DNA of 64,000 nucleotides. Origin: Undibacterium sp. KW1 (GTDB taxonomy: Bacteria > Pseudomonadota > Gammaproteobacteria > Burkholderiales > Burkholderiaceae_D). The stretch is taken from the NCBI RefSeq assembly GCF_009937955.1, contig NZ_AP018439.1, positions 5,146,001 to 5,210,000 on the forward strand. Reading direction: 5' to 3'. The position numbers and the translations under genes are program-made. Below the pieces are notes generated by a model. That model saw only the letters and a program-made list of their open reading frames with translations, had not been told where the DNA came from and did not search any database. Below, in pieces: positions 19,866 through 52,591 of the stretch. The first letter of the stretch is position 1; each line of letters opens with the position of its first letter.

Positions 19866-19967
19866 AGGACTTACGAAAAACCGCCCCAGCTGCGTTGCAA
19901 CTCCTAGCCGTACTAAAAGTACTGTCTTCGTCGCTGCGCCTTGCTGGGACAATTTTGCGTAAGTCCT
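19866..19967. repeat. Palindromic intergenic repeat, copy A
   Basis: This 102-base imperfect palindrome has perfect 10-bp ends AGGACTTACG/CGTAAGTCCT and a GTACT-aaa-AGTAC centre. Its reverse complement is nearly identical to copy B at 47756, apart from small indels near the centre. The first base follows the narK1 stop codon directly, and the repeat fills most of the narK1-narK2 gap. The core block with GACGAAGACAGTACT is shared with copies B and C. It may fold into a long hairpin in the mRNA and modulate narK2 expression. Confidence 0.85.
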
Positions 19968-36468: not shown

Positions 36469-37473
36469 ATGAAACCTATAGATCTGGTGGCTCCTGCCGG
36501 TAGTCTGCTTGCCTTGAAGGCAGCGGTAGATAAAGGGGCAAATGCGGTTTACCTTGGCTTGCGCAATGCGACCAATGCGCGCAATTTTGGTGGATTGAAT
36601 TTTGCCGACCACGATATACGGCAAGGAGTTGCCTATGCCCATGAACGTGGCCGGCAAATCCTGTTTGCCATCAACACCTATCCGCAGGCACGCGCTGTTG
36701 GTGAATGGCGGGCGGCAATTGACACTGCCGTGCAGATGGGTGCAGATGCGGTGATACTGGCCGACCCTGGCCTGATGGCGTATGCGCGTGACCGCCACCC
36801 TGAGCTGCGCCTGCATTTGTCGGTGCAGGGCTCGGCCAGTACGCTCGATGCGATAGAACTCATGCGTGAGCAATTTGCCATCCGGCGCGCCGTACTGCCG
36901 CGCGTGCTGACCCTGCCCGAGATAGAAAAGATCATACGCCAGACCAGCGTGGAAATAGAAGTGTTTGGCTTTGGCAGCCTGTGCGTTATGGCGGAAGGCC
37001 GTTGCCTGCTCTCAAGCTATGTCACCGGCGACTCACCAAATAATAAAGGCGTATGTTCGCCAGCGCATGCGGTGAGCTGGGAAGAACAAGACCAGACCAT
37101 GTATGCGCGTTTGGGCGGTACCCTGATAGACCGCTATGCACCCGGTGAAGCCGCCGGTTATCCAACCTTGTGCAAAGGGCGTTTCGAAGTCGAAGGTGAA
37201 ATCGACTATGCACTGGAAGAACCAACCAGCCTGAATGCCATTGGCCTCTTGCCCAAGCTGATCAATATGGGTGTTGCCGCCATCAAGATAGAAGGCCGCC
37301 AGCGCAGTCCGAATTACGTCAGCCAGGTCGTGGCTACCCTGCGTGCGGCACTCGATGCCGCGCAACGCGACCCGGAACGCTATTCACCGCGCACAGACTG
37401 GCAAGCCAGCCTGGCCCGCCATGCCGAAGGCGCGCAAGTGACCCAGGGTGCTTTTGAACGTCCGTGGAAATGA
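36469..37473 (+). CDS. ubiU: UbiU, O2-independent ubiquinone hydroxylation protein
   Basis: This 334-residue U32-family (peptidase-like) protein works with UbiV and UbiT to hydroxylate ubiquinone precursors without oxygen. The [4Fe-4S] ligands fit the UbiU pattern: C172, C179, C196 and C235, in SLCVMAEGRCL, GVCSPAH and PTLCKGR. The N-terminal VAPAGSLLALKAAVDKGANAVYLG is the family hallmark. A degenerate Fnr-like sequence TTGAC-CCAG-CACAA lies at 36420-36433. UbiV starts two bases after its stop. The setting beside nitrate respiration genes agrees with anaerobic ubiquinone supply. Confidence 0.93.
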   Translation: MKPIDLVAPAGSLLALKAAVDKGANAVYLGLRNATNARNFGGLNFADHDIRQGVAYAHERGRQILFAINTYPQARAVGEWRAAIDTAVQMGADAVILADPGLMAYARDRHPELRLHLSVQGSASTLDAIELMREQFAIRRAVLPRVLTLPEIEKIIRQTSVEIEVFGFGSLCVMAEGRCLLSSYVTGDSPNNKGVCSPAHAVSWEEQDQTMYARLGGTLIDRYAPGEAAGYPTLCKGRFEVEGEIDYALEEPTSLNAIGLLPKLINMGVAAIKIEGRQRSPNYVSQVVATLRAALDAAQRDPERYSPRTDWQASLARHAEGAQVTQGAFERPWK

Positions 37474-37474
37474 T

Positions 37475-38398
37475 ATGACTGACAGCTTACCTGCTACCAC
37501 CGCTCTGCTTTCCCTCGCGCCCCTGGCCTACTACTGGTCCAGACAGGACACTTTGAATTTTTACGTCGATGCCATGCAATGGCCGATCGATATCGTCTAT
37601 CTCGGTGAAGTCACTTGCTCGCGCCGCCATCTGATGAAACTGGATGACTGGCTGGCACTGGGCAAGGAATTACGGGATGCAGGCAAGCAGGTTGTGCTAT
37701 CCAGCCTGACCCTGATAGACAGCGAGGCCGACCGGCGCAATATGCACAGGATGATAGAACGCGCCTGCGCAGAAAACTTCCTGGTCGAGGCGAATGACTA
37801 CAGCGCCGTGCGCGCCATGCAGGGCAAGCCCTTTGTTGCCGGGCCGCATCTGAATATCTATCATGCAGACAGCCTGGCATGGCTGGCCAGCCTCGGTGCC
37901 TGCCGCTTTTTACCGCCGCTGGAAATGGGGCGCGATGCGCTGGCAGCCTTGCAACAGCAACGCGGTGTACAGATGCAGACTGAAGTACAGATCTGGGGGC
38001 GCATGGCCCTGGCTTTTTCATCACGCTGCTTCACCGCCAGGCATCATCGCCTGCGCAAGGATAGTTGTGAATTCCGCTGTGAGCTATACCCGGACGGGCT
38101 GCCCCTGGCCACCCGTGACGGCAAGGATTTTTTGACCATCAATGGCATACAGACCCAGAGTGCCAGTTGCGTCGATCTGGGTGCGCAATTACCTGAACTG
38201 GCCGCCATGCAGGTGGATATCTTGCGCCTGCAGCCACAGTCACAAGGCATGGCAGAAGTGATTGCGGCATTTGACCGTGCCAGAACGGCAAAGCTGGCTG
38301 CCGAAGTCAGCGAGACCCTGCTGCCACCCCATGCACAGCGCAGCAATGGCTACTGGATGGATAAGCCCGGCATGCAATGGCTGGCCGGAGAGAGATAA
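37475..38398 (+). CDS. ubiV: UbiV, O2-independent ubiquinone hydroxylation protein
   Basis: This 307-residue partner of UbiU is also a U32-family iron-sulfur protein. Cys residues C48, C185, C198 and C202 are arranged as in known UbiV (one early, three in FSSRCFTARHHRLRKDSCEFRC-like context). The family segments YYWSRQDTLNFY and VYLGEVTCSRRH begin the protein. The start at 37475 follows the ubiU stop directly; a longer in-frame start would overlap ubiU. It forms a heterodimer with UbiU in the model from E. coli. Confidence 0.92.
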   Translation: MTDSLPATTALLSLAPLAYYWSRQDTLNFYVDAMQWPIDIVYLGEVTCSRRHLMKLDDWLALGKELRDAGKQVVLSSLTLIDSEADRRNMHRMIERACAENFLVEANDYSAVRAMQGKPFVAGPHLNIYHADSLAWLASLGACRFLPPLEMGRDALAALQQQRGVQMQTEVQIWGRMALAFSSRCFTARHHRLRKDSCEFRCELYPDGLPLATRDGKDFLTINGIQTQSASCVDLGAQLPELAAMQVDILRLQPQSQGMAEVIAAFDRARTAKLAAEVSETLLPPHAQRSNGYWMDKPGMQWLAGER

Positions 38399-38404
38399 AT
38401 CAAC

Positions 38405-38857
38405 ATGGACCTGAGTAATTTCCGTTTTCCCAAGAACATACAAAAACTGGGCAGCTATGTGCCAGCACCACTGGCGAATGCCCCTTTGATGCTGCTGCTT
38501 GAACTGGCCAGGCAGCGGGCACTGCTGGTCGCACCTGAGAGTCTGTACGGCAAGAGTTTTCGTATCAGGGTAGAAGACCTCGGTTTGTCACTGTGTTTTT
38601 ACTGCGAGGCTGGCAAATTCAAGCCACTATCATCTCTGCCCCAGCCGGATGTCAGCCTGTCTGCCAGCGCCATGGATTTTTTAAAACTGGCAACTGGTCA
38701 AGAAGATGCCGACACCCTGTTCTTCCGCCGTCGTTTGAAGATGGAAGGTGACACTGAACTGGGCATCGCCGTCAAATACTGGCTTGATGCCAGCGAACGC
38801 CCTGCCTGGCTCGCCCGCTTTGGTCAGCGCTTCATGCATGCAGGTGAAGGTGTGTGA
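38405..38857 (+). CDS. ubiT: UbiT, SCP2-domain lipid carrier for anaerobic ubiquinone synthesis
   Basis: This 150-residue protein has an SCP2 sterol-carrier-like fold. It is thought to bind the polyprenylated ubiquinone intermediates and present them to UbiU/UbiV under anaerobic conditions. Visible features are the short N-terminal helix, the hydrophobic APLMLLLELARQRAL segment and the final strand-helix DTELGIAVKYWLDASERPAW, which is typical of UbiT/YhbT. It starts six bases after ubiV, and its stop overlaps the start of the DGC gene (TGATG). The three ubi genes and the DGC gene are clearly one transcript. Confidence 0.88.
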   Translation: MDLSNFRFPKNIQKLGSYVPAPLANAPLMLLLELARQRALLVAPESLYGKSFRIRVEDLGLSLCFYCEAGKFKPLSSLPQPDVSLSASAMDFLKLATGQEDADTLFFRRRLKMEGDTELGIAVKYWLDASERPAWLARFGQRFMHAGEGV

Positions 38858-39231
38858 TGAAAACCGTGCCACTGCCCCTGGTGTATTCCTGCTCTGGCTG
38901 TTCCAGTGTCGCGCAACTGGCCAATGATTGTGCGCTCAGGCTGGACCGCGAACAAAAGGCGCAGATGTCCTGCATCAGTGGCGTTGGTGGCGGCGTTGCC
39001 AGTCTGGTTAAACTGGCGCAATCTGGCAGGCCTGTACTCGCACTGGATGGCTGTGCACTGGCCTGTGTCAAAGCCTGCCTGCAACAGGCCGGTGTCGTCC
39101 CTGATGTTCATCTGGTGCTGAACCAGCAAGGCGCACGCAAGCGCTTCCATGCTGATGCCACTGAAGATGAGAGGAAACATATCTGGCAACAGGTCGAAGA
39201 TGCCGTGCAGGCCCTGGAGCCGCAAGCATGA
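38857..39231 (+). CDS. DGC-domain putative zinc/metal-binding protein
   Basis: This 124-residue protein belongs to the DGC-motif family of putative zinc-binding proteins. It contains the DGC motif (D64-G65-C66) and other conserved cysteines: C12, C15, C25, C39, C70 and C74, in YSCSGCSSVAQLANDCA, MSCISGVGGG and LDGCALACVKAC. No enzyme activity is known to me. Members often lie near nitrogen-oxide respiration or molybdenum genes. The ATG at 38857 overlaps the ubiT stop. Eight-plus cysteines in a small soluble protein suggest a metal or Fe-S carrier, perhaps serving UbiU/UbiV. Confidence 0.75.
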   Translation: MKTVPLPLVYSCSGCSSVAQLANDCALRLDREQKAQMSCISGVGGGVASLVKLAQSGRPVLALDGCALACVKACLQQAGVVPDVHLVLNQQGARKRFHADATEDERKHIWQQVEDAVQALEPQA

Positions 39232-39246
39232 AGCCAGGTTTATATT

Positions 39247-40431
39247 TTGCGGGGCCTCGCTGGCCCCACCCAAGGGATACATGATCATGAAACGTCTTGC
39301 CACCGCCCCCACAGACTGTATTTCTTTCTCGGTGCTGTGTCTGTCTTTATCCTGTTCTTCTGGTGGTGGTTGCAGCTACAGCATCCGCAGACCATGGCCA
39401 TACCCTTGCATGCCTTGCTGATGCCGCTAGGTGTCTTCCCCTTGTTCATTTTGGGTTTTACTTTCACTGCCGGGCCTAAATGGCTGGCCGTCAGCGCTGA
39501 CGATGACTACTTCCTACTGCATGGTGCCACCTATTTTTGCGGCCTGCTGTTGGCCATGCTGGCAGCCAGTCTGGGCTTGTCGCCTTTGCGCAGCTCGGGT
39601 TTTGCACTGATGCTATGCGCCTGGCTGGCAGTGATCTGGCGCTGGGCCGGTTTGATCAAACGCAGCACAGTGCCGGATAAAAAACATGCGATTGCCATCT
39701 TGCTTGCCATGTGCGGTGGCGCATGTGCACTGGCCGCGACCCTGATGTGGAGTTGTGGCTGGACAGATGCATGGATCATCGCCCGCCAATGCGCCTTCTT
39801 TGGCTTTTTACTGCCGGTGTTCCTGACCGTCTGCCATCGCATGCTGCCATTTTTTAGCGGCAATATCATCAAACCCTACGTGGTCTGGCGTCCTTACTGG
39901 TTGCTGCTTGCCTGGTTAAGCGGCTGTGGTTTGCTGGTGATCAGCGGCAGCCTGCAATGGCGCTGGCTGGAAGCTGGTGCGGCCACAGCGATGAGCCTGA
40001 GTTTCATGTATACCTCCTGGCGCTGGGGTCTGTTGCGCAGCATGGCAAACCGGCTGCTGGCCATGCTGCATCTGTCGTTTGCCTGGCTTGCCATCGTCTT
40101 TGCACTGCAGGCTGCGGGCGCGTATGGCGTATCAGTCGGATCAGCGCCTGTGCATGCGCTGGCCCTGGGTTTCATGGGTACCATGCTGGTGGCATTTGTC
40201 AGCCGGGTTACTTATGGTCACAGTGGCCGCCCGCTGCAGGCCTCCGGCCTGTTATGGGGTATTTACCTGGGCTTGCATATTGCCGCCCTGTTGCGCATTT
40301 TGGGAAGCCTGTTGTCATACAGCTTTCTCATCACGGTCTCTGCAACAGCCTGGCTGGCCCTGCTGGCATGCTGGATCGCGATGATGCTGCCTATCTACCT
40401 CAAAGCGCGGGCAGATGGGCAGGCTGGTTAA
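39247..40431 (+). CDS. nnrS: NnrS-family heme/copper membrane protein, start region frameshifted
   Basis: This 394-residue polytopic protein has about 12 helices and the NnrS signature HALALGFMGTMLVAFVSRVTYGHSGRPL near the C-terminus. NnrS proteins protect against NO and iron-complex damage and often sit with denitrification genes. The intact frame opens with TTG at 39247, which is unlikely. An ATG at 39287 in another frame encodes MKRLATAP, and adding one C to the CCCCC run at 39306-39310 would continue as HRLYFFLGAVSV. That joined N-terminus looks like the family, so the true gene is probably 39287-40431 with a one-base deletion. Confidence 0.78.
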   Translation: MRGLAGPTQGIHDHETSCHRPHRLYFFLGAVSVFILFFWWWLQLQHPQTMAIPLHALLMPLGVFPLFILGFTFTAGPKWLAVSADDDYFLLHGATYFCGLLLAMLAASLGLSPLRSSGFALMLCAWLAVIWRWAGLIKRSTVPDKKHAIAILLAMCGGACALAATLMWSCGWTDAWIIARQCAFFGFLLPVFLTVCHRMLPFFSGNIIKPYVVWRPYWLLLAWLSGCGLLVISGSLQWRWLEAGAATAMSLSFMYTSWRWGLLRSMANRLLAMLHLSFAWLAIVFALQAAGAYGVSVGSAPVHALALGFMGTMLVAFVSRVTYGHSGRPLQASGLLWGIYLGLHIAALLRILGSLLSYSFLITVSATAWLALLACWIAMMLPIYLKARADGQAG

Positions 40432-42161: not shown

Positions 42162-42869
42162 TCAAATGCCTTTACGCACCAGCACTGGATCTGGCCGGTA
42201 TACCGCAGGCATGACACGCTTGAGGTTTTCAACCTTGGGCAAGTCGTTGATGGCGATGTATGGCTCATTAGGATGCAGGGTCAGGTAATTCTGGTGATAG
42301 GCCTCTGCTGCGAAGAAACCTGTGTCTGCTTCCAGGGTGGTCGCCAGTTTGCCACGGAAAGCGCGCGAGGCATTTAGTTGGGTGATGTATTTTTCAGCCA
42401 CGTCGTGTTGTACTGGCGTAGCTGGGAAAATCGCAGAACGGTATTGTGTACCACTATCCGGCCCCTGGCGGTTCAACTGGGTTGGGTCATGCGCGACAGA
42501 GAAAAATATCTGCAGCAGCTTGCCATAACTGATCTGGCTAGGATCATAGGTCACCTGCACTGCTTCTGCATGGCCGGTTGCGCCTGAGCCCACCAATTCA
42601 TAATGCGCAGTTGCTGCCTTGCCACCGGCATAGCCCGAGACTGCATTGGTGACACCGCGCACATGTTGGAAAACGCCCTGCACACCCCAGAAGCAGCCAC
42701 CGGCAAACACTGCAGTCTCAGTCTTGGCACTGCCTGCCGGTACATCCACCACTGGCGCGGCAATGATGACTGCTGCCTCATCGGCCCTTACCTGGCCATT
42801 GAAAACCAGTGCTGCTGCGACACAGCCTATGCCCAGCAACAGGGCTGTAAAACTGTTTGCTATTTTCAT
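42162..42869 (-). CDS. msrA: Periplasmic peptide-methionine (S)-S-oxide reductase, single catalytic Cys
   Basis: This 235-residue MsrA has a Sec-type signal (residues 1-29, cleavage near VRAD), so it repairs oxidised methionine in the periplasm. The catalytic motif is GGCFWG with C59. After the signal peptide I see no other cysteine, so it lacks the usual resolving Cys and needs an external thiol donor. The family segments VSGYAGG, GHAEAVQVTYDP and GTQYRSAIF are intact. It is the last gene of the leftward cassette msrB-dipZ-msrA, with a palindromic repeat in the gap before it. The DipZ-type gene upstream is the obvious donor. Confidence 0.92.
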   Translation of the reverse strand: MKIANSFTALLLGIGCVAAALVFNGQVRADEAAVIIAAPVVDVPAGSAKTETAVFAGGCFWGVQGVFQHVRGVTNAVSGYAGGKAATAHYELVGSGATGHAEAVQVTYDPSQISYGKLLQIFFSVAHDPTQLNRQGPDSGTQYRSAIFPATPVQHDVAEKYITQLNASRAFRGKLATTLEADTGFFAAEAYHQNYLTLHPNEPYIAINDLPKVENLKRVMPAVYRPDPVLVRKGI

Positions 42870-42892
42870 GTCGTACTCCTTGTAATTAATGT

Positions 42893-42996
42893 AGAGGCTG
42901 TTGCAAAATTAAGCTGGCTAGGCGTCGCCGACGAAGACAGTACTTTAGTACGGCTAGGAGGCGCAACAACGCCAGGTTAATTTTGCGGCAGCCTCT
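42893..42996. repeat. Palindromic intergenic repeat, copy C
   Basis: This 104-base imperfect palindrome has ends AGAGGCTGTTGCAAAATTAA and TTAATTTTGCGGCAGCCTCT, which match with two differences. The centre contains GACGAAGACAGTACTTTAGT followed by ACGGCTAGGAG, shared with copies A and B, but the outer arms differ. Its last base overlaps the dipZ stop codon (leftward TAA at 42996-42998). It fills the dipZ-msrA gap and could influence msrA expression through a large RNA hairpin. Confidence 0.82.
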
Positions 42997-44864
42997 TAAC
43001 CAAAAGTGAAGGCGTAAGTTTCAACGCCAGGATCAAGAAACTCTATGCTGAAAGTGTGCCCGGCAACTTTGCCGGATTGTCGCACCAGTTGGTACAAACG
43101 CTGGCCAGTCACCGTGCCCGTACCGTCGGCGGCGATGTCACTGCCATGTGCGGCACCAGGCGCAGCACCGTCGATAGTGACGCGGAAACGCACAGGCTTG
43201 CCGTCTTTGCCGGGCCCCAGCACCAGATGCAGGTCACGGGCCTGGAAGCGGTAAGTGATGCGCCCGCCCTTTTGCGTCAGGGCGGCATGTTCTTCCTGCA
43301 CCTTCCAGTTACCTGCCAGACCCCATTGATTCAGCGCGAGTTGCGCTGGCAGGCTGTAATCAGCATTGCGGTTTTGCTGTACACCGCCAGCTGAAGCAAA
43401 GTTTTGCACGCGGCTATAACCAAGATAGGTTTCTGGTGATTTGACCTGGCTATCGTCCGCCGCCATTTGTGCACCGGCCGCCCCCGTCTCAATGACGACA
43501 TCATTGGCGACATTTTTCTGGCCTGCTTCTTCCAGCAATTGCTGTATCACCTGCTCAGATTGCACATACTCGCCTTCACCAAAATGATGGTGGCGTATGC
43601 GGCCAGTGGCATCGATGAAATAATGCGCAGGCCAGTACTTGTTGCCAAAAGCACGCCAGATTGCATAGTTGTTGTCGATGGCAACCGGGTAGCTGATACC
43701 CAGGTCGCGCACGGCCTTGCTGACATTGGCAGGGTCACGCTCAAACGCAAATTCAGGCGCATGCACACCAATCACAACCAGGCCCTGGTCACGGTATTTC
43801 TTGGCCCATGCCTGCACATACGGCAGGCTACGCAGGCAATTGATGCAAGAGTAGGTCCAGAAATCGATGAGCACGACCTTGCCTTTGAGCTCCTGCGCAG
43901 TCAGTGGTTTGGAATTGAGCCATTGTGTTGCACCATCCAGTGACGGCATGCTGCCCTCTTCGGGCAAAGAACCCGTTGCTGCATTATTGCCATGCGCAGA
44001 CATCGTGGCATTCGATGGTGCCATGGTGTTGGATGTCATTTGCTTGTTCGATGCCATCATGGCATTGGAAGCCATCGTTGCATTCGAGGCCATCATCGCC
44101 CCCTGCTGCGTTGCGATCTGTGCTGGTGCCGGATTGGCTTGTACATCTGGTGAAAAACGGTCTATCAATTGCTGTTCCAGACCTGAGGTGGCAACAGTAG
44201 ATAAGCGTGTCAGCAGGCCAGTATCCAGACCCAGCGCAATCGCAGCAACACCGGCTATCATCGCAGCACCCAAAATGCGGCGTACCCATTCACCAGCACC
44301 CAGTGAGCGTTTCATCGCGGCAAATACCTTGCCACCTATCAGCAAGGCCACGGCCAGTGAAGTCGCGGCACCAGCAGCATACGCCAGCAGCAGGAAAGTT
44401 GTCTGTGCACTCGCACCATTGAGTGCTGCGCCAGTGAGCAGCAGACCAAGTACCGGCCCGGCACAGGGTGCCCACAACAGGCCCGTCGCCACGCCAAGCA
44501 ATAACGATGAACCTATGCCACCGCCATCTGCCTGTGCCGTACTTGATAAACGGTCACCAGCAGCCACCAGTGGCTTGGTGAGCTTGTCAGCCAGGTGCGG
44601 GAACAATAGCGTCAGGCCAAAGAACGCCAGCAAGGCCATTGCAAGCCAGCGGCCATATTGATTGGTCTGCAACACCCAGTTACCACCAACCGCAGCCAGC
44701 GTGGCAACCGCGGCGAAAGTCAGCGCCATGCCCACCAGCAATGGCAAGCCACTGCGGCGGAAAGGCTGACCAGTGCGGGCGAAGACAAACGGCAGCACCG
44801 GCAGGATGCAGGGGCTGAGTATGGTCAGCACGCCACCAAGATAAGAAATAAGTATCAACAACAT
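42996..44864 (-). CDS. dipZ: DipZ-type CcdA-thioredoxin fusion with a Met-rich linker
   Basis: This 622-residue membrane protein carries reducing power across the inner membrane. Residues 1-220 form a CcdA-like domain with redox Cys C19 (ILSPCILP) and C134 (WAPCAGP). A linker at 256-290 is built from repeated MASNA/MTSN units and has eight Met residues. A thioredoxin-like domain follows (325-460) with the active site C340-I-N-C343 in WTYSCINCLRSLP. The last part (about 480-622) is the beta-rich C-terminal domain seen in DipZ proteins. It sits between msrB and msrA, so it probably recycles both reductases in the periplasm. The Met-rich linker is not a normal DipZ feature that I know of. Confidence 0.88.
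   Translation of the reverse strand: MLLILISYLGGVLTILSPCILPVLPFVFARTGQPFRRSGLPLLVGMALTFAAVATLAAVGGNWVLQTNQYGRWLAMALLAFFGLTLLFPHLADKLTKPLVAAGDRLSSTAQADGGGIGSSLLLGVATGLLWAPCAGPVLGLLLTGAALNGASAQTTFLLLAYAAGAATSLAVALLIGGKVFAAMKRSLGAGEWVRRILGAAMIAGVAAIALGLDTGLLTRLSTVATSGLEQQLIDRFSPDVQANPAPAQIATQQGAMMASNATMASNAMMASNKQMTSNTMAPSNATMSAHGNNAATGSLPEEGSMPSLDGATQWLNSKPLTAQELKGKVVLIDFWTYSCINCLRSLPYVQAWAKKYRDQGLVVIGVHAPEFAFERDPANVSKAVRDLGISYPVAIDNNYAIWRAFGNKYWPAHYFIDATGRIRHHHFGEGEYVQSEQVIQQLLEEAGQKNVANDVVIETGAAGAQMAADDSQVKSPETYLGYSRVQNFASAGGVQQNRNADYSLPAQLALNQWGLAGNWKVQEEHAALTQKGGRITYRFQARDLHLVLGPGKDGKPVRFRVTIDGAAPGAAHGSDIAADGTGTVTGQRLYQLVRQSGKVAGHTFSIEFLDPGVETYAFTFG
43995..44100 (-). repeat. In-frame tandem repeat coding the Met-rich DipZ linker
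   Basis: Degenerate tandem units of roughly 18-21 bases, related to ATGGCTTCCAATGCC, run through this part of dipZ. They encode repeated MxSN/MASN motifs at residues 256-290. The units vary in sequence but keep the reading frame. Expansion and contraction of such repeats can change linker length between strains. Confidence 0.75.
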
Positions 44865-44904
44865 GTTTGCTTTCTGTATGCCGCTCAGGCTTAATCAGGC
44901 TTAA

Positions 44905-45381
44905 TTAGGCTTTACCCGGTGTGAATGTCATTGCCACGCCATTCATGCAATAACGCAAACCGGTAGGGCGCGGGCCGTCATCAAATACATGGCCGAGGTG
45001 ACCACCGCAGCGGCGGCACAGCACTTCTGTGCGCAGCATGCCAAAGGTAGTGTCGGTCACATTGACAACAGCGCGCTCCAGTGGCGCATAAAAGCTGGGC
45101 CAGCCAGTGCCGCTGTCAAACTTGGTTTTTGATGAAAACAGTGGCAACTGACAGCCAGCGCAACTGAACTGACCGCTGCGGTGTTCATCATTGAGCGGGC
45201 TGCTGAAGGCACGCTCGGTCGCGCCACGGCGCAAGACCTCGTATTGCATGCCGGTCAGCAGACGACGCCATTCGGCATCGGTGCGTTGAACTTCAAACAC
45301 ATTCCCCACAGGGGCGGCTGACAACATGCGGCTCATGGCGAGCATGCTGCCAGCCAGTAGAAATTGACGTCGGTTTTGCAT
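44905..45381 (-). CDS. msrB: Exported peptide-methionine (R)-S-oxide reductase
   Basis: This 158-residue MsrB has a twin-arginine-like signal (NRRQFLLAG at residues 3-11), so export through Tat is likely. Zinc is bound by C74, C77 (CAGC), C122 and C125 (CRRC). The catalytic Cys is C145 in LRYCMNGVAM. GTGWPSFYAP and HVFDDGPRP are family marks. No separate resolving Cys is seen, so reduction by a thiol partner such as DipZ is expected. The ATG at 45381 follows AAGGAGG; an upstream in-frame start is unnecessary. It is the first gene of the leftward cassette and is divergent from a two-component system. Three copies of a 10-base AGGCTTAATC-like unit overlap its 3' end (44887-44916). Confidence 0.92.
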   Translation of the reverse strand: MQNRRQFLLAGSMLAMSRMLSAAPVGNVFEVQRTDAEWRRLLTGMQYEVLRRGATERAFSSPLNDEHRSGQFSCAGCQLPLFSSKTKFDSGTGWPSFYAPLERAVVNVTDTTFGMLRTEVLCRRCGGHLGHVFDDGPRPTGLRYCMNGVAMTFTPGKA

Positions 45382-45518
45382 ATATCCTCCTTGGTGTATG
45401 TGCAGCATCTGTGCCACTGTTCTTATTGTGCGCCTCAATCGCTGTCCAAGTCTTCACGTAAAGTTAAACGATTTGTGATACTTTTTATCTGCAAATCCTG
45501 CACAATGACAACATTCGG

Positions 45519-46250
45519 ATGGCGGGGAAAAGCGTGGATACAGCAAAAAATATTCTGATCGTGGAAGATGACATGCCCATCGCCGACCTGCTACGCCTGC
45601 ACATGAAGGACGAGGGTTATCAGGTCACGCATTGCGCTGACGGCAGACAGGGCCTCGCACAATTGCGCACTGGTAACTGGGATGCCCTGATCCTCGACAT
45701 CATGCTGCCTGGTGTGGATGGTCTGGAGATTTGCCGCCAGGCACGTGCCATGGAAAACTATGTGCCGATTATCATCATCAGTGCCCGTTCCAGCGAAGTG
45801 CACCGCATCCTGGGTCTTGAACTTGGCGCTGACGATTACCTGGCCAAACCTTTCTCGGTACTGGAGCTGGTGGCCCGCGTCAAGGCCATGCTGCGCCGTG
45901 CCGATGCGACGGACAAGAGCCGCCGCACTGAAGCCGGAGACGTGGCCGTAGATGGCGTGGCCTTGTCGCCAGTGACACGGGTCGCCACTGCCGATGGCAA
46001 GCTACTGGACCTGACCCCGCGTGAATTTGACTTGTTGTACTTCTTTGTACGCCACCCTGGTCAGGTCTATTCACGCCTGGATTTGCTCAACAAGGTCTGG
46101 GGTTATGAGCATGAGGGGTATGAACATACCGTCAATACCCACATCAACCGCCTGCGTGCCAAGATAGAGAGCAACCCGGCGGAACCGCAGCGCATCCTGA
46201 CTGTGTGGGGCAAAGGTTACCGTTACGCGCTGCCGGGAGAGGTGACGTGA
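45519..46250 (+). CDS. OmpR-family response regulator
   Basis: This 243-residue regulator has an N-terminal receiver domain with acidic pocket E16-D17-D18 and phosphorylatable D60 in LILDIMLPGVDG. The C-terminal winged helix has LTPREFDLLYFFVRHPGQVYS and the final GKGYRYAL. The ATG at 45519 is used here; a GTG at 45534 with GGGGAAAA before it is an alternative start. The gene is coupled to the kinase gene by a GTGA overlap. It is divergent from msrB across 137 bases, so it may control the methionine-sulfoxide-repair cassette, as HprRS does for msrPQ in E. coli. That link is inference. Confidence 0.88.
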   Translation: MAGKSVDTAKNILIVEDDMPIADLLRLHMKDEGYQVTHCADGRQGLAQLRTGNWDALILDIMLPGVDGLEICRQARAMENYVPIIIISARSSEVHRILGLELGADDYLAKPFSVLELVARVKAMLRRADATDKSRRTEAGDVAVDGVALSPVTRVATADGKLLDLTPREFDLLYFFVRHPGQVYSRLDLLNKVWGYEHEGYEHTVNTHINRLRAKIESNPAEPQRILTVWGKGYRYALPGEVT

Positions 46251-47758
46251 AGCTGACGCTGTCCCAGCGCCTGTCGCTGGTATTTTCTGTGTTGTTGCTG
46301 GCCAGTTGTGGTGTCTCTGCCTGGTTGCAGATACGCGCCAATGACATGCGTGAGATGGAAGTGGTGCAGGGCCTATCGCGCGGACTGGCAGCCAGCATCG
46401 CCGTCAATGCGCAATTGACAGGCACAGAAGAAATGGGGCCGGATTCTGTACGCCGCCTGTTTGACCAGTTAATGAGCGTCAACCCCAGTGTGGAAGTTTA
46501 TCTGCTCGATGAAACCGGCAAGATCATCGGCAATGCGGCACCACCTGGCCGTATGAAACGCCAGCAGGTTGATCTGACACCTATACGCAAATTCCTTGAT
46601 GGCCGTATGTTGCCCATACTCGGTGACGACCCCCGCAGTATCACCGGACGCAAAGTATTCAGCGCGGCGGCATTGCGCAGTAACAAGCCTGAATCACATT
46701 ACATCTACGTTATTTTGCAAGGCGAAGAACATGATCGCTATGCTGCGCATGCGGGTATCAATGCGGTATTGCGTGTCACCCTGTTATCGATGGCACTGGT
46801 AGCATTGCTGACACTGGTGGCTGGCTGGGCTGCACTGCGCTGGGTCACCCGACCTTTGCACAAGCTGGCAGACACCATGCGCCGTTTTGATACCCAGGCT
46901 GAACAGCCCGTCGTACCACCACCGTTAGCACAGGCTACCAACCAGCGTGATGAAATCGCGGTACTGGAAACCAGTTTCGGGCAAATGGCGGCGCGCATCA
47001 ATGAGCAATGGCATACATTGAAGCAGATGGATCATGACCGGCGCGAAGTGGTCGCCAATATCTCGCACGACCTGCGCACGCCGTTGACATCCATCCACGG
47101 TTACCTGGAAACCCTGGCTGCCAGAGATGCGACGCTGGATGCGGCTGAGCGCCAGCGCTATCTGGCGATTGCGCTGGGCCAAAGCCGCAAAGTTGGCCGT
47201 CTGGCGCAGGCGCTGTTTGACCTCGCGCGTCTCGAACATGGCGGCGTAGCGCCAGAGCCTGAAGCCTTCATGCTGAATGACCTGATACAGGATGTGTTCC
47301 AGAAGTTTGAGCTACAGGCGCAAAACGGCCAGGTCAGGCTGGAAGCAGAGCTGGATGGCAATGCCATGGTCATGGCAGACCTCGGCATGATAGAGCGGGT
47401 GCTGACCAACCTCATCGACAATGCCATACGCCATACACCAGCAGGCGGCGCGGTGGCTGTGGCGGTAGCAAAACGCTCGCAGGCAGTGGAAATCTGCATA
47501 CGTGATACTGGCCCGGGCATACCCGCTGAATTACTGGACAAGCTGTTCAAGCGGCCATTTGCACTCAGCGGTGCAGGCCACGGTGGCGGCCTGGGTTTGC
47601 TGATCGTGCACCGCATCCTGCAATTACACCATAGCAGTATAGAATTACGTACAAACCCTGCTGCAAACAGCACGGGAGCCTGCTTCTGCTTTGCCCTGCC
47701 ACTGGCAACTGACGCTGCGGGTAACATTAACTCATCGATAAATAAACAGATTAAGTAG
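46247..47758 (+). CDS. Sensor histidine kinase partner of the OmpR-type regulator
   Basis: This 503-residue membrane kinase has TM1 at about residues 10-28 and a periplasmic sensor region at about 29-170. The periplasmic part contains four methionines within residues 34-105 but no known sensor motif. TM2 is at about 175-200, followed by HAMP to about 255. HisKA has the phospho-acceptor H274 (NISHDLRTPLTSIHGYL). The HATPase domain has LIDNAIRHTP and DTGPGIP. The GTG at 46247 overlaps the regulator stop. The stop codon TAG lies inside palindromic repeat copy B. The signal is unknown; oxidative or chlorine stress would fit the msr genes next door. Confidence 0.87.
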   Translation: MKLTLSQRLSLVFSVLLLASCGVSAWLQIRANDMREMEVVQGLSRGLAASIAVNAQLTGTEEMGPDSVRRLFDQLMSVNPSVEVYLLDETGKIIGNAAPPGRMKRQQVDLTPIRKFLDGRMLPILGDDPRSITGRKVFSAAALRSNKPESHYIYVILQGEEHDRYAAHAGINAVLRVTLLSMALVALLTLVAGWAALRWVTRPLHKLADTMRRFDTQAEQPVVPPPLAQATNQRDEIAVLETSFGQMAARINEQWHTLKQMDHDRREVVANISHDLRTPLTSIHGYLETLAARDATLDAAERQRYLAIALGQSRKVGRLAQALFDLARLEHGGVAPEPEAFMLNDLIQDVFQKFELQAQNGQVRLEAELDGNAMVMADLGMIERVLTNLIDNAIRHTPAGGAVAVAVAKRSQAVEICIRDTGPGIPAELLDKLFKRPFALSGAGHGGGLGLLIVHRILQLHHSSIELRTNPAANSTGACFCFALPLATDAAGNINSSINKQIK

Positions 47759-47868
47759 GACTTACGCAAAATTGTCCCAACCAGGCGTAGCGACGAAGAC
47801 AGTACTTCAGTACGCGGCTCCTAGGAGAGGAGCTGCAACGCAGTTGGGGCGGTTTTGCGTAAGTCCTA
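47756..47868. repeat. Palindromic intergenic repeat, copy B
   Basis: This 113-base imperfect palindrome has perfect 11-bp ends TAGGACTTACG/CGTAAGTCCTA. The first three bases are the TAG stop codon of the sensor kinase gene. It matches the reverse complement of copy A closely along its whole length and shares the GACGAAGACAGTACT core with copy C. A Shine-Dalgarno for the HD-domain gene (AAGGAAA) begins just past its right end. Confidence 0.87.
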
Positions 47869-47884
47869 TTAAGGAAAAGCACCA

Positions 47885-48496
47885 TTGAAAACTAGAGCAT
47901 GGATCAGGCTGCCGTCGGGCAAACACCTTGACCTGATCAACCCCGATCCCCAGGCCTGGCTGGATAGCGACCTGGCAGACAGACTGTCGAGAACTTACCG
48001 CTGGGGTGGCGAATCCTGTTGGCCACGTCCACTGTCAGTAGCCCAGCATAGCCTGAACGTACTTGCCCTGCGCAGTACCATGACAGAAACACCCATGAGC
48101 GCAGGAGCCGCCTTGCGCGAACTCTTGCATGATGGTGAAGAAGGCCTGCTGGCCTTCGACTGTATTTCACCGCTGAAAGCCGTATTAGGCGCGCCGTTCA
48201 AGGAAGTCAGCGACAGGCTCACAGATGCGATCGTCAGACGCTATCAGCTACCCGCCTGGGATGAGATGGATTACCGCCTGCATAAACTGGCAGATGAACT
48301 GATCGCCGCCTCAGAAGCCGTGCATTGCGCCGGCTGGCCGCGCAATGAAGTACTGGATGTGCTGGAAATCAAACTCCCCATCCTCGAAGACGACCCGCTG
48401 GCAGAAATCTATGATAGTCAGCCGTGGGAGCCTTGGCCTCCAGAACTTGCAAGTCAGCGATTTCTGGATAGGATGATAGAGTTGAGCAAGACATAA
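47885..48496 (+). CDS. HD-domain phosphohydrolase-like protein
   Basis: This 203-residue cytoplasmic protein has an HD-superfamily metal site: H55 in SVAQHSLNV, H82-D83 in LHDGEEG and a later Asp in KLADELIAASE. The layout resembles YfbR-like 5'-nucleotidases and related phosphohydrolases; the exact substrate is unknown. The start codon is TTG at 47885 with AAGGAAA about nine bases upstream; homologues that I recall begin at the same place (MKTRAWIRLPSGKHLDL). The gene follows the kinase gene across repeat copy B, and no functional link is evident. Confidence 0.72.
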   Translation: MKTRAWIRLPSGKHLDLINPDPQAWLDSDLADRLSRTYRWGGESCWPRPLSVAQHSLNVLALRSTMTETPMSAGAALRELLHDGEEGLLAFDCISPLKAVLGAPFKEVSDRLTDAIVRRYQLPAWDEMDYRLHKLADELIAASEAVHCAGWPRNEVLDVLEIKLPILEDDPLAEIYDSQPWEPWPPELASQRFLDRMIELSKT

Positions 48497-48548: not shown

Positions 48549-49967
48549 CTAAAAATCAGGCGACAAGGTTTTTTTCCAACTCAAATAAGTCAGCTCTATC
48601 ATTATCAGCAGCAACATGCTTATACCCAGTGCAGGCAAAGCTATTCCCAGGGCGATCATGAGCAGCCATACCCACCAGGAGATTGCCTGTGCATGCCTGC
48701 GCTCCAGCTTAGGTGCAGACAATGTACCTGCTTTGCGGCGTTGCAGCCACATGACATAGCCAGATACCACTGAAAAAATCACGCTTACACCCACCAGCAC
48801 CAGCAGTGCCTGGTTCCACCAGCCAAATTCACCACGATGAAATGGAATGCCAACAGCAGTAGCGCGGGACAGGACTGGCATCTGCTCCCAGCCAGACTGG
48901 AACATGGTATTGCCGCTGTAAGCATCCAAAATCAACTGAAAGCGTTTGCCAGGCTGGCTGCGATCATAATTATCTATCTTCCATACTCCGCTTTCAGATT
49001 TTGGTGGTGTCAATTGCATCTGTACATCAGGTGCCTGATTTTTTGCCTGTTGATATACCGCTTGCATGCTCAGTGCCAAGTTGCCATTGATAGCAACAAC
49101 TGACTTTAAGTCTTTCGGTGCTCTTGGTGTATTTTGTGCAGCCGCATTCTGCGCCATGCGGAAGTTTTCCCCTGCATATTTAGCCCAGGTCAGGCCTGTC
49201 AGCAAAATAGTCAGAGTGACTAAGCCCAGGACGATACTTAACATGCTATGCAGGTAGCGCCAGGTAGCACGGCGATTATTGCCACTGTATTGCAACACGC
49301 TGCGCCAGCTTGCTTTGCCCCGTGGCCACCAGAGATAAATGCCAGTGATCATCATCATGAGCATCCAGCTGGCTCCCAGTTCTATGATCCAGCGCCAGCC
49401 ATCCCCTTGCAGCATATTGGAATGCAGTTTGCGGGCCCAATTGCGGAATCGCCCTGACTCCAGAATACTTCCCTGTATTTTGGCTGTACCAGGATCAACA
49501 TAGACAATCAGGTTTTCTGCCCGGGCGCTATGATCATTAGCTTCGACCTTGGCAGCCTTTGACGCTGCTGGCATCTGATGTCCCTGGTGCTCTTCATGCC
49601 CATTCGGCTTACTGGTCTCTGTATTGTCAGTTTTTTTGCCGCGCTGTCTTTGTTCACCAAAGATCACTTGCGTGGTTTCTCCCACTGTATAAGCCGGGAT
49701 TATGGACTTGATTTGCTTACCCGGAAAGGCTGCCATCGCCGCATCAACTTGACGATCAAGTGGCAACGCAGGCCTGATTTGCTCAACCTTATCCAGCTCG
49801 CCATGTTTCCATGCTTCGATCTGCGGTGTAAAAATGTACAGTATGCCTGTCAGTGCAGCAAACAAGACGATAGGTGCAGTCAGCAAGCCTGACCAAAAAT
49901 GCAAGCGCCAAAAGACCCTGTGCAATAAAGCGCTTTTATTGACATGCTGTATATCCAGGTCACTCAT
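48549..49967 (-). CDS. PepSY-associated inner-membrane protein with a His-rich segment
   Basis: This 472-residue protein has four or five membrane helices and two PepSY-type periplasmic regions. It opens with LHRVFWRLHFWSGLLTAPIVLF, typical of the iron-regulated PiuB/PepSY_TM family, several of which are ferric reductases. A polar stretch near residues 108-150 contains His124, His127, His130 and a Met (EEHQGHQM), which could bind metal. It lies 67 bases downstream of a TonB receptor gene and is in the same operon. Likely role: metal reduction or transfer linked to uptake. Copper or iron is possible. Confidence 0.8.
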   Translation of the reverse strand: MSDLDIQHVNKSALLHRVFWRLHFWSGLLTAPIVLFAALTGILYIFTPQIEAWKHGELDKVEQIRPALPLDRQVDAAMAAFPGKQIKSIIPAYTVGETTQVIFGEQRQRGKKTDNTETSKPNGHEEHQGHQMPAASKAAKVEANDHSARAENLIVYVDPGTAKIQGSILESGRFRNWARKLHSNMLQGDGWRWIIELGASWMLMMMITGIYLWWPRGKASWRSVLQYSGNNRRATWRYLHSMLSIVLGLVTLTILLTGLTWAKYAGENFRMAQNAAAQNTPRAPKDLKSVVAINGNLALSMQAVYQQAKNQAPDVQMQLTPPKSESGVWKIDNYDRSQPGKRFQLILDAYSGNTMFQSGWEQMPVLSRATAVGIPFHRGEFGWWNQALLVLVGVSVIFSVVSGYVMWLQRRKAGTLSAPKLERRHAQAISWWVWLLMIALGIALPALGISMLLLIMIELTYLSWKKTLSPDF

Positions 49968-50034
49968 TTTCTTACTCCAGAATTCTTAGGGAAGCAGGCG
50001 GACGCCAGTGCTCCGCCTGTTTGTTGATCGCTAC

Positions 50035-52359
50035 TTAGTATTGGTAGCGCACTTCGACAAACAGATTTCGTCCTGGCGAAGGATGAGATTGATATGCCCG
50101 GTAATCCGTGACGTTGTCTATTCCCGCTGCCAGCTCCAGACCTTTGACTGGCTTGAACAAGACACGCAGATCAAGCTGCTTGACACGCGACAAACCTCCA
50201 TAGGTATCTGGATTGGTATCCAGATTCAGCATGTCATTGTATTGACGCCCTGCGTAACGGTAACTGCCCGCCACACTCCAGCGACCGCTTGGTGCGTAAC
50301 TCAGGGTGACTGATCCACGGATGCGGGGTATGCGTACCCAGGTCTTGCCTACTGAGGCGATAAAATTATCGTTCTCGATGATCTTGGAATCATTCAATGC
50401 CAGATTACCATCCAGATTCAGGCCGTTAATGAACAGATTGTCGATGTCGCCAGCCAGTTCAATACCCCGTGTACGTACCAGCCCCACGTTTTGTACATTG
50501 GTGATACTTGGGAAAACAGCCGTATTGGTCTGACTCCAGATGGTATCGCGTATATTGTCTTGAAATAGTGAGACTCGCAGACTGGCATTGCGGTAGCGTT
50601 TCTCCAGCATCAATTCAATGGCATCGGATTTTTCCGGGCGCAAATTAGGATCATTCAACACAATGCTACTGCCGGATTGCGTGCCCTGGAATAACTCGGC
50701 AACCGTGGCAAAGCGCGTACCTCGTCCAGCAGAAAGGCGGGCAGTAATATCATCTGCCGCTTCCCAGGTAACAGCCAGTTTGGGTGACATCGCAGTGATA
50801 CTGCGCTCCGGGTAAGCTTGTGATGCGCCAGGAATAAAACGCTGACTACCGTTGTAAGCCTTCCATGATTCCCAGCGGGTACCTATAGTCGCCTTCCAGT
50901 CCTGGGCAAAACGCCATGCATCTTGCGCATATAAAGCAAACAAGCGTGTATCACCGCCTACAAACTGGCTTTCAGCTCCAGCGCCGCGACGCCAATCCGT
51001 TGTCAAGGTCTGTGTGCTTTGTGCCAGATGATAGTCATTGGCATGCAAACCAAAAGTCAGGTAGTGCACGCCACCGGTCCAGTCACCTTGTATCGGGCTA
51101 TAGGTAGATTGCAGCTCGAATGTCCGAAATCCTGTGCCGTCACGCAAGGTAGAAGTTCCCGCGCCACCATTTGCGGCCACAGGGTCTGGATTGTTTGCAG
51201 TGCGTTGAATGTCTTCAATAATCCGATATTGACTTGCAACTACAGACATATTCCAGCCTGACTGATGACGTGTCTTGACGGTCAGTCCTGCCTGCACATG
51301 GCTCTCCTGGCGATTGAAGGGGGCAAAGGCTGAAGCAGGTATATCAAAAACATTGCCGTTATTGCTGACTCGACCCGACCAGATGGTTTGACCGTTGGCA
51401 TCGCGCAGGAAGCTATTATTGCGATTGTCGCTATCATTTTTCCACCAGGCCAGCATCCCTTCTGCACTCAGGGTCGGTGAGAAATCATAGCCAAATGCAG
51501 CTTTCCCTGTGGTTTGTATGGTGTGATCAATAGCACCGGCGTTGGCACCAAAGACTGCACGTTTTTGGCCGGTAGGAGCTATATCGTACTGAACTCCGGT
51601 AACAGTGGTCGTCGGCCTGGTTCCTGTTGGTGCGGTGAATACGCCTGCATTATTTGCATTCACCGTGTAGTACTGCATGGGGTGACCAGTAGAGTCCTGA
51701 CGATTGAGCATAAGGCGATACCATGCTCCATTCGCGAGTTTGTCACCAATCTGGGCAGACGCCTGTGCGTTGGTGTAGGTTTCACTCAAGCCATAGCCGT
51801 CAAATTTTTCTGATTGCACCGCCAGACGGGCTGATGCTTCAAACTGCTTTGGTTTTCTGGTGCTGATAACCACAGTTGTTCCTATGGAGTTGCCCGGATA
51901 AATAGCCGAATAAGGACCATACAACAAATCCACCCGTTCGATTTCTTCCGGTGCAATCATATTCCAGCGTGGGGCATCGAATCTTCCAAGGAAGTTTGAA
52001 ATCAGATAGCCATCCATCAGCACCAAGCCACGCGGAGCCTGGGTCGTGCCGAAGCTACGGCCACCAATGAGAGCATTGCGATCACCGCTGTAACGCTTGC
52101 GTATCGTGGTATTCGGCATATTGCGCAAGACATCTTCCGGATTGAATATATTTTGCTGCTCGCGGAGTTCTGCCGCTGTCAGGCTGGCAGTTGTAGATGG
52201 CAAATTTGCCGCCAGTGGCAAGCGGGTGCCGTCCACGGCAACTGTTTGCAATTGTTGTTCTGTGGCGACTCCCTGAGCAAAAACAACAGTAGAAAACGTA
52301 CTGGCGATCAGTACGGAAAGTGGTTTCAACAAGGGTGAAACGCGAAAGTTTGTAGTCAT
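50035..52359 (-). CDS. TonB-dependent outer-membrane receptor
   Basis: This 774-residue receptor has an expected signal peptide (MTTNFRVSPLLKPLSVLIASTFSTVVFAQ) and a plug domain with RNMPNTTIRKRYSGDRN and RGLVLMDGYL. A long beta-barrel ends in FVEVRYQY, with the aromatic terminus needed for assembly. The start at 52359 was chosen because the signal peptide begins there; a longer frame upstream has no good signal. No Shine-Dalgarno is obvious. The ligand is unknown. Neighbouring PepSY and DUF2946 genes hint at copper or a metal chelate rather than a classic siderophore. Confidence 0.88.
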   Translation of the reverse strand: MTTNFRVSPLLKPLSVLIASTFSTVVFAQGVATEQQLQTVAVDGTRLPLAANLPSTTASLTAAELREQQNIFNPEDVLRNMPNTTIRKRYSGDRNALIGGRSFGTTQAPRGLVLMDGYLISNFLGRFDAPRWNMIAPEEIERVDLLYGPYSAIYPGNSIGTTVVISTRKPKQFEASARLAVQSEKFDGYGLSETYTNAQASAQIGDKLANGAWYRLMLNRQDSTGHPMQYYTVNANNAGVFTAPTGTRPTTTVTGVQYDIAPTGQKRAVFGANAGAIDHTIQTTGKAAFGYDFSPTLSAEGMLAWWKNDSDNRNNSFLRDANGQTIWSGRVSNNGNVFDIPASAFAPFNRQESHVQAGLTVKTRHQSGWNMSVVASQYRIIEDIQRTANNPDPVAANGGAGTSTLRDGTGFRTFELQSTYSPIQGDWTGGVHYLTFGLHANDYHLAQSTQTLTTDWRRGAGAESQFVGGDTRLFALYAQDAWRFAQDWKATIGTRWESWKAYNGSQRFIPGASQAYPERSITAMSPKLAVTWEAADDITARLSAGRGTRFATVAELFQGTQSGSSIVLNDPNLRPEKSDAIELMLEKRYRNASLRVSLFQDNIRDTIWSQTNTAVFPSITNVQNVGLVRTRGIELAGDIDNLFINGLNLDGNLALNDSKIIENDNFIASVGKTWVRIPRIRGSVTLSYAPSGRWSVAGSYRYAGRQYNDMLNLDTNPDTYGGLSRVKQLDLRVLFKPVKGLELAAGIDNVTDYRAYQSHPSPGRNLFVEVRYQY

Positions 52360-52591
52360 TTGAAATGAAATTACATCTTGAGATTTTTGGACTGCCAGGC
52401 TGATGTTTTCAAGAAATTCGGAATAAGCTACTTTGACGCACACGATCCTTTGGCATGACCTGAAGCCAAATGCCAATCGCTACGCAATTGAATGCGACAG
52501 AAGCTTAAAACCGGACTAAGTAGAATTTCCCTGAGTGCAATCAGACATACCCAGAGCCACATTGCGATGTGCTCAGGGAACTAGTTGATGA

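Follow-up and report, generated by a model that had tools for sequence, protein, structure and literature searches.

The window analysed here, 64,000 nucleotides of Undibacterium sp. KW1 (NZ_AP018439.1) whose numbering is used throughout, contains at 42162-47758 the leftward genes msrA, dipZ and msrB and, divergent from them and rightward, the genes of a response regulator and a sensor histidine kinase. This gene content and these directions had been claimed in an earlier note on the same DNA and were confirmed by the open reading frames (ORFs) and their Pfam matches. Based on the sequence analysis the five genes quite likely form a dedicated periplasmic unit for the repair of methionine sulfoxide, in which DipZ would drive the methionine sulfoxide reductases (Msr) MsrA and MsrB under the control of the unit's own two-component system (TCS).

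In the proposed mechanism electrons from cytoplasmic thioredoxin would be received by the CcdA domain of DipZ (Cys19/Cys134) and passed on to its thioredoxin-like domain (Cys340/Cys343), which would re-reduce the sulfenic acid on the catalytic Cys of the exported MsrA and MsrB. The kinase/regulator pair is predicted to govern msrB-dipZ-msrA via one box as well as, in the divergent layout, its own genes. A Met-rich disordered linker would tether the thioredoxin domain to the membrane, its most likely additional role being to trap oxidants locally, in a renewable manner, and to serve as a substrate of the Msr, a predicted function that we put forward tentatively. We infer the direction of the electron flow, activation rather than repression by the regulator, the signal of the kinase and the function of the linker. 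The interpretation given in the earlier note is thus supported in part; the linker, the twin-arginine signal of MsrB and the regulator box are additions to it.

Besides MsrPQ/HprRS, the unit would represent a second design for the regulated repair of methionine in the periplasm; it is seen in Burkholderiales, Pseudomonas and further genomes of the same class, and its predicted regulon is a single operon. Furthermore, its single-Cys MsrA and MsrB and the fused DipZ would suit the study of sulfenic-acid reduction by a membrane-tethered thioredoxin.

The conservation of the gene order, which the earlier note had suggested to examine, was followed in two sets of loci, linkage being defined as a distance within 3.5 kb. 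Among the 80 nearest DipZ loci, found by six peptide words in contigs of one genome per species, 51 have the exact order of divergent kinase and regulator genes followed by msrB, dipZ and msrA. Since one of the six words (MMASNKQM) was taken from the linker, these loci may lean towards Met-rich linkers. Partial units consist of the TCS with dipZ and msrA (seven loci), with msrB and dipZ (three) or with dipZ alone (five); no TCS is in reach of msrB-dipZ-msrA in six loci, one of which (L072) is truncated by the contig end, and of msrB-dipZ in another six. One locus contains dipZ alone (L042), and in L098, at a contig end, only the regulator of the TCS was recognised.

The second set was sampled independently of the linker by Pfam Thioredoxin_10 searches in genomes drawn from the family, phylum, order and class, which gave matches in 16/145, 29/398, 38/399 and 13/370 genomes, respectively (the sets overlap). 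It comprises 55 CcdA-bearing DipZ with sufficient flank, of which seven belong to the full unit, one has the TCS between dipZ and msrA, one has a co-directional TCS before msrB, 25 are linked to one or both msr without a TCS, and one is accompanied by the kinase only. An identical sequence (L061/L152) was counted in both sets. The rearranged locus with the TCS between dipZ and msrA (L181) encodes a Met-rich linker, and the one with the co-directional TCS (L175) a linker without Met.

No matches were detected in six other sampled genomes of the same genus, indicating a patchy distribution of the unit. DipZ relatives occur in 160 of 72,556 plasmid records (E 1e-100); the two annotated plasmid sites inspected carry msrB-dipZ-msrA (Burkholderia) and msrB-dipZ (Rhizobium). 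A rough clustering of the ORFs in 70 TCS loci, blurred by non-coding frames, gave five clusters present in 30-66 loci, which were assigned by place and strand to the unit genes and antisense frames without being named singly; no further cluster recurred in more than ten loci.

The exported reductases and DipZ as their putative electron donor

MsrA contains one Cys in its signal segment (C16) and one in its domain (C59), and MsrB contains a CxxC...CxxC set, the catalytic Cys within RYCMN and Thr at the site of the resolving Cys, which in two-Cys MsrB is reported to lie within the GCGWP motif (PMC8945050). The statements of the earlier note that MsrA retains C59 alone after the signal peptide, and that MsrB combines the zinc Cys set and a catalytic Cys without a resolving one, thus hold for the sequences. 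This was extended to the DipZ-linked homologues, with the columns before about residue 40 (MsrA) and 48 (MsrB) omitted from the count. The catalytic Cys is present in 93/93 linked MsrA, which share no second Cys column (two rows, L089 and L098, have a stray extra Cys), and a resolving Cys occurs in 0/103 linked MsrB, Thr occupying the site in 102 and one row being unread. A hidden resolving Cys, which the earlier note had named as a possible refutation, was therefore rejected for these proteins. The single-Cys pattern of the linked Msr is not due to chance.

One more MsrA and one more MsrB are encoded in the 6.7 Mb genome besides the locus copies. With Cys at 0, +3, +35 and +143 relative to the catalytic Cys (MsrA) and the motif GCGWPS (MsrB), they are, judging from these residues, of the common type that has a resolving Cys.

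Both enzymes of the unit appear to be exported, MsrA by a hydrophobic and MsrB by a twin-arginine (Tat) signal. A loose twin-arginine plus hydrophobic pattern, applied without a signal predictor, was found in 65/65 TCS-linked MsrB and in 32/38 other DipZ-linked MsrB. The zinc enzyme is therefore probably folded in the cytoplasm before its export via Tat.

The predicted DipZ combines a CcdA domain containing two membrane Cys with an external CxxC thioredoxin domain and a C-terminal Thioredoxin_10 domain (Pfam DsbD_TM 2-204, Redoxin 316-430, Thioredoxin_10 476-622). C19 and C134 of the CcdA domain and C340 and C343 of the thioredoxin motif are invariant in an alignment of 32 of 43 listed diverse DipZ, the window protein included. 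In the structural model (mean predicted local distance difference test, pLDDT, of 81.6) a helical membrane part (2-237) is followed by an unstructured segment (238-295, pLDDT <50), and the thioredoxin and beta domains are both confident. The thioredoxin domain matches 2hyx (E 6.6e-68) and 5cyy, structures of Mycobacterium tuberculosis DipZ.

Further matches of the same domain were Etrx (4hqs, 4e-9; 2yp6, 4.1e-8; 4hqz, 1.3e-7) and the N-terminal domain of PilB (2jzr, 2e-5). The pneumococcal Etrx1/2 are described as demonstrated donors of external Msr (PMC3914529), and the PilB N-terminal domain likewise as a demonstrated Msr donor (PMC6210582). Together with the linkage of msr to DipZ in 34 of the 55 sampled loci and the invariant transfer Cys, this relatedness supports the prediction of the earlier note that DipZ recycles both reductases.

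Short DipZ-like proteins lacking CcdA (L106, L107, L108, L113, L114, L174 and L184) contain a thioredoxin motif of the form TCINW or SCINW, with Trp in place of its second Cys, and perhaps represent a single-Cys or non-redox branch; that of L184 is flanked by msrB and msrA.

The single-Cys pattern, from which the earlier note had argued for an external donor, is weakened as a sign of linkage to DipZ. Of 30 MsrA loci with high scores in genomes that contain DipZ, 29 encode a C-terminal Cys (24 counted by script, five from printed sequences), and the remaining one (L237) is DipZ-linked and single-Cys. Ten MsrA outside the DipZ loci of such genomes were additionally picked by hand; nine of these (L273-L281) have a hydrophobic N-terminus and are single-Cys, and L282, the remaining one, contains three Cys and lacks such an N-terminus. 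Single-Cys thus marks the exported class and not the linkage to DipZ. The single-Cys exported MsrA fits an external donor, and DipZ is not thereby proved to be that donor. An N-terminal docking motif of MsrA was rejected as non-specific as well, since unlinked exported MsrA share it.

These findings on the unlinked MsrA are among several that weigh against DipZ as a dedicated donor. The site of the resolving Cys in MsrB from 30 high-scoring loci of DipZ genomes is occupied by Cys in 17, Thr in ten and Ser in three, only one of the Thr rows (L269) being DipZ-linked; five of the nearest 80 loci combine TCS and dipZ without linked msr; and 20 of the 55 sampled DipZ have neither linked msr nor TCS, which suggests that DipZ has other clients. 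The unlinked MsrA and these 20 loci would also agree with DipZ being a general periplasmic thiol reductase that is co-transcribed with msr, another donor recycling the single-Cys Msr. Taking into account that msr is linked to DipZ in most of the sampled loci and that no linked Msr read has a resolving Cys, we consider this explanation unlikely.

Predicted control by the two-component system

A 31-base box precedes the regulator gene in all 76 divergent TCS loci, the window included, from which its matrix was built (consensus A.TCCTCaCg.Aaa.TTAAAttA..tGTGAtaa.T, reaching or approaching 2 bits at many positions). The pattern without mismatch occurs at one genomic site, 45451-45478 of the window, and with up to three mismatches at three further sites versus two for the reversed control. 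The regulator therefore probably acts on this divergon alone.

Due to the origin of the matrix only the 68 loci without a TCS and L175 can serve to test the box. It is kept before msrB-dipZ-msrA in six loci without a TCS in reach (L076, L093, L095, L101 and L102 from Burkholderia, and L153 of the same DipZ clade; scores 36.3-48.3) and before dipZ in L159 (27.0), and the loci cut by contig ends, L098 and L072, score 55.3 and 42.5. The next-highest scores (L209, 11.8; L178, 10.5) lie, by position, away from any DipZ promoter. In L175, with its co-directional upstream TCS, the box (27.6) is located directly before msrB and away from the regulator gene.

The presence of the kinase was checked in 14 genomes chosen for their known box state. 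An unlinked kinase orthologue was found in 7/7 uncut genomes with a box but no nearby TCS, namely G465 (L153; 60% identity), the five Burkholderia (59-61%) and G487 (L159; 44%, with one stop codon inside the matched stretch). No orthologue was detected in the seven box-less genomes examined, whose loci score -18.2 to -3.5: the best matches in G392 and G107 (115 and 85 bits) cover the kinase core, and the genomes of L039, L045, L046, L060 (Caballeronia) and L038 (Burkholderia sp. Leaf177) gave no kinase match at E 1e-60. The 14 genomes represent far fewer independent events, given that L038, L039, L045, L046, L060 and L151 (G392) group in a single DipZ clade and the Burkholderia with a box in a second one. 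In G487 the box occurs at both dipZ and the relocated TCS (43.4).

Three observations weigh against this reading of the box. Apart from the nine unambiguous boxes, scores from -4.2 to 11.8 were obtained for 13 of the 68 loci lacking a TCS, whereas none of 40 shuffled loci exceeded -4.2, so that the shuffles understate the background. The relocated TCS of G465 retains a half box only (8.8). Finally, the five TCS and dipZ loci without msr keep the box, which suggests that the core target of the regulator may be dipZ. Nevertheless, the fact that the box is conserved and occurs together with the kinase in trans supports the control of msrB-dipZ-msrA by the TCS that the earlier note had proposed; this co-occurrence is indirect evidence of control, as close as sequence gives.

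The response regulator reached the cut-off of none of the 25 best-matching NCBIfam models among 101. Its membership in HprRS was rejected based on 143.4 bits against the HprR model NF008567 (cut-off 353), in accordance with the distinction from MsrPQ/HprRS drawn in the earlier note.

Cys-based sensing in the periplasmic domain of the kinase was rejected as well, since none of 76 kinases, including that of the window, has a Cys there. Met76 in the periplasmic part is invariant (76/76), His35 and His162 are kept in 70/76 each, the window kinase having Arg at 35, and in the first membrane helix all 76 carry Cys at position 20, at position 21 or, in 66 of them, at both. The kinase model reached a mean pLDDT of 70.8, with values of 48-72 for blocks of the sensor region, and a fold search with it gave best 50 matches led by the kinase core. 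In Escherichia coli HprS is reported to rely on a pair of periplasmic Met for the sensing of hypochlorite and to require a Cys in the membrane (PMC10151825). This likeness in residue pattern makes a sensor of methionine oxidation the leading guess for the kinase, copper being the rival signal.

The methionine-rich linker of DipZ

The composition of the linker was evaluated in 128 DipZ loci, 16 of 144 rows having been dropped because of a contig end within 2.5 kb. On average, the linker contains 5.54 Met where both msr and the TCS are linked (n=56), 2.11 with both msr and no TCS (n=19), 3.0 with msrA and TCS (n=7), 3.25 with msrB and TCS (n=4), 2.0 with the TCS alone (n=5), 1.0 with msrB alone (n=13), 0.33 with msrA alone (n=3) and 0.24 with none of them (n=21). 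In the 56 loci of the first group the share of Met is 10.6% in the linker versus 1.3% in the remainder of DipZ, and in 20 loci without msr or TCS it is 1.3% and 1.2%, respectively.

Met-Met pairs are present in 80 of the 128 linkers (77 with linked msr, 67 with a TCS, none with neither), and the 48 linkers lacking them include 25 with linked msr and five with a TCS. The 91 distinct linkers with at least two Met contain 164 such pairs versus 38.8 +/- 5.6 after shuffling; since the rows are related, no probability is claimed for this excess.

Independent contrasts were calculated on trees built without the linker, with linker length as covariate; rows lacking the CcdA domain (fewer than 200 residues ahead of the linker) as well as L180 and L214 were excluded. 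Met was the only residue with |t|>2 for the number of msr, both over the 128 loci (t=3.94; TCS term 2.64) and in the main clade of 82 rows (t=3.35; TCS term 1.89), with sign-flip p values of 5e-5 and 1e-4. A comparison of independent pairs, confined to supported branches, yielded 11 that contrast in the presence of both msr; at least four Met were concordant in 6.3 and opposite in 0.0 (median p 0.031, range 0.008-0.25; medians 0.031 and 0.0625 at cut-offs of three and five). For the TCS alone five pairs were too few for a test.

A neutral origin of the linker through repeat expansion, with shared ancestry accounting for its association with msr, would be in line with the tandem 18-nt unit that makes up part of the array (tandem repeat at 44047-44096), with the position of most Met-rich rows in one clade, and with the linker-derived search word. 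This explanation is possible, but the exclusive response of Met in the length-corrected contrasts, the sign-flip values and the concordant independent pairs argue against it, as do the separate lines with Met-rich linkers of other sequences (L104; L162/L163/L167/L168).

Further results count against a role of the linker in the repair. In the 56 rows of the linker-blind sample alone the association of Met and msr was weak (t=1.70), which also speaks for the neutral explanation, and the TCS term of Met (2.74) was accompanied by |t|>2 for N, Q and T. Moreover, a short linker with no Met is found in 12 of the 14 sampled loci that combine both msr genes but lack a TCS; as msr-linked DipZ outside the TCS clade are mostly Met-free, the linker does not seem to be needed for the partnership with Msr. 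In our reading, Met enrichment characterises the TCS-type DipZ as well as two further lines and fades where the linkage to msr has disappeared.

In Azospira and Brucella a Met-rich peptide encoded together with MsrPQ homologues was proposed to be a sacrificial oxidant sink that is renewed by the Msr (PMC8315932), and this precedent of the MrpX/BcrX type makes a fused sink plausible. Going further, the tether could be a built-in methionine bait that is oxidised first and repaired in cis by both Msr docked on the thioredoxin domain, its oxidation state serving as a fuse or gauge of the periplasmic oxidant load that is possibly read by the kinase. We regard this as doubtful; if true, redox buffer, substrate and donor would be combined in one polypeptide, which would explain the retention of Met in a low-complexity linker and be a rare case of donor/substrate co-evolution within one protein. 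None of the titles found in the open-access literature concerns a Met-rich linker of DipZ or DsbD, and DipZ and methionine sulfoxide appeared together there only in a Salmonella CpxR paper, with one mention each.

Alternatively, the genes could form a copper unit in which the Met-Met motifs bind Cu(I), the kinase senses copper and the Msr mend copper-driven oxidation of Met. Met-rich periplasmic segments can bind Cu(I), His35, His162 and Met76 of the kinase could be ligands, and the third NCBIfam match of the kinase is a heavy-metal sensor subfamily, though below its cut-off (162.7 versus 292.55 bits). A precedent is the periplasmic repair of oxidised protein reported for E. coli during copper stress (PMC9302797). 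However, the 91 linkers with at least two Met are poor in His (mean 0.45) and contain one Cys in all, the rough clustering of the 70 TCS loci gave no sixth cluster in more than ten of them, and the window kinase has Arg at 35. Thus, it seems unlikely that the unit is dedicated to copper, and the repair of oxidised methionine remains our preferred reading.

Locus context and comparison with known systems

The features of the locus are listed in the table. The ORF of msrB, listed as 44905-45438, begins at the first TTG; counted from the likely start codon, an ATG at 45381, the catalytic Cys is the C145 of the earlier note.

Table. Features of the msrA-dipZ-msrB locus and its divergent two-component system.
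Feature	Coordinates	Strand	Basis
msrA, exported single-Cys methionine-S-sulfoxide reductase (predicted), 235 aa	42162..42869	-	PF01625 (PMSR) 187.6 bits; hydrophobic N-terminal export segment
Palindromic repeat resembling a miniature inverted-repeat transposable element (MITE), 104 bp, between dipZ and msrA	42893..42996	.	26-nt arms, 88% complementary
dipZ, CcdA membrane domain, thioredoxin (CINC) and C-terminal beta domain, 622 aa	42996..44864	-	Pfam
Met-rich disordered linker of DipZ, aa 235-298	43971..44162	-	8 Met/64 residues; pLDDT <50 at 238-295
msrB, zinc-type single-Cys methionine-R-sulfoxide reductase (predicted), Tat-type signal	44905..45381	-	PF01641 (SelR) 159.3 bits; N-terminal NRRQFLLAG
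Conserved regulator box, msrB/response-regulator intergenic	45452..45482	+	matrix of 76 loci; score 45.8
OmpR/PhoB-type response regulator	45519..46250	+	Response_reg + Trans_reg_C
Membrane sensor histidine kinase	46247..47758	+	HAMP + HisKA + HATPase_c

The adjacency of msrB, dipZ and msrA described in the earlier note holds, with the correction that the palindromic repeat separates dipZ from msrA. Its final base is the final base of the dipZ stop codon, and the repeat is missing at the same place in a 93%-identical relative (L023). MITE-like palindromic repeats of about 100-113 bp are located at 42893-42996 and 47756-47868 of the window, and the core also at 19918-19933 (minus strand). The core pattern has 19 sites in the genome versus 0 for the reversed control, long arms being clear in 12 of the 19 copies. 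In some copies (L297, L296, L302) the ends vary and the arms remain mutually complementary, as if the hairpin itself were maintained. No RNA families were detected at E 0.1 over 42800-48000.

On one side of the unit, 37448-40431 encodes an NnrS protein (PF05940), a peptidase-U32/SCP2-like pair with a likeness to the anaerobic ubiquinone genes ubiV/ubiT and a small Cys-rich protein; this looks like a nitric-oxide/anaerobic respiration neighbourhood. The other flank (48549-52476) encodes a PepSY_TM membrane protein beside a TonB-dependent receptor, perhaps an iron-uptake pair.

The unit resembles MsrPQ/HprRS of E. coli (PMC10151825) in its predicted periplasmic repair under a TCS, and its kinase resembles HprS by residue pattern. 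It differs in that MsrPQ consists of a molybdenum enzyme and a haem membrane protein, whereas a thiol relay is predicted here. No Pfam domains of MsrP or MsrQ were found among the ten proteins at 39.2-52.5 kb, to which the search was confined within the genome; one of them (47885-48496) has no Pfam match. The earlier note was correct in separating the unit from MsrPQ/HprRS and missed closer precedents in Fusobacterium nucleatum and Haemophilus influenzae.

The F. nucleatum cluster msrAB2-ccdA-eTrx-modRS, the five genes of which were reported to rise under H2O2 (PMC12288474), likewise unites a TCS, CcdA, a thioredoxin-like protein and Msr in one locus, so that the present unit is not the first such locus published. 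In contrast to the unit described here, its MsrAB is fused and likely cytosolic, CcdA and the thioredoxin are separate proteins, and ModRS is called a global regulator (PMC12288474), whereas the box is single in the present genome; the accessible part of that account mentions no Met-rich linker.

The route predicted here, from CcdA via an external thioredoxin to external Msr, is that of the pneumococcal CcdA-Etrx-MsrAB2 (PMC3914529) and of msrAB-Trxe-CcdA of H. influenzae (PMC9404787). In these systems MsrAB is fused, the donor is unfused, and the accessible parts of both accounts mention no linked TCS; for the pneumococcal MsrAB2 an intramolecular disulfide is reported (PMC3914529). The fused MsrAB with a resolving Cys, a trait of the Etrx, PilB and H. 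influenzae systems, is replaced here by separate single-Cys MsrA and MsrB. DipZ itself belongs to the same thioredoxin and C-terminal domain family as its M. tuberculosis counterpart.

A Met-rich segment encoded with Msr is described for MrpX/BcrX (PMC8315932), which are separate peptides with MXKDX repeats, whereas the Met-Met motifs (GAMM/PAMM/GSMM) lie here inside the donor's own tether. Three elements appear to be new within the literature searched: the combination of a single-Cys Tat-type MsrB and a single-Cys MsrA around a fused putative DipZ donor; the box with its single target, put to a natural test in trans; and the Met-rich tether.

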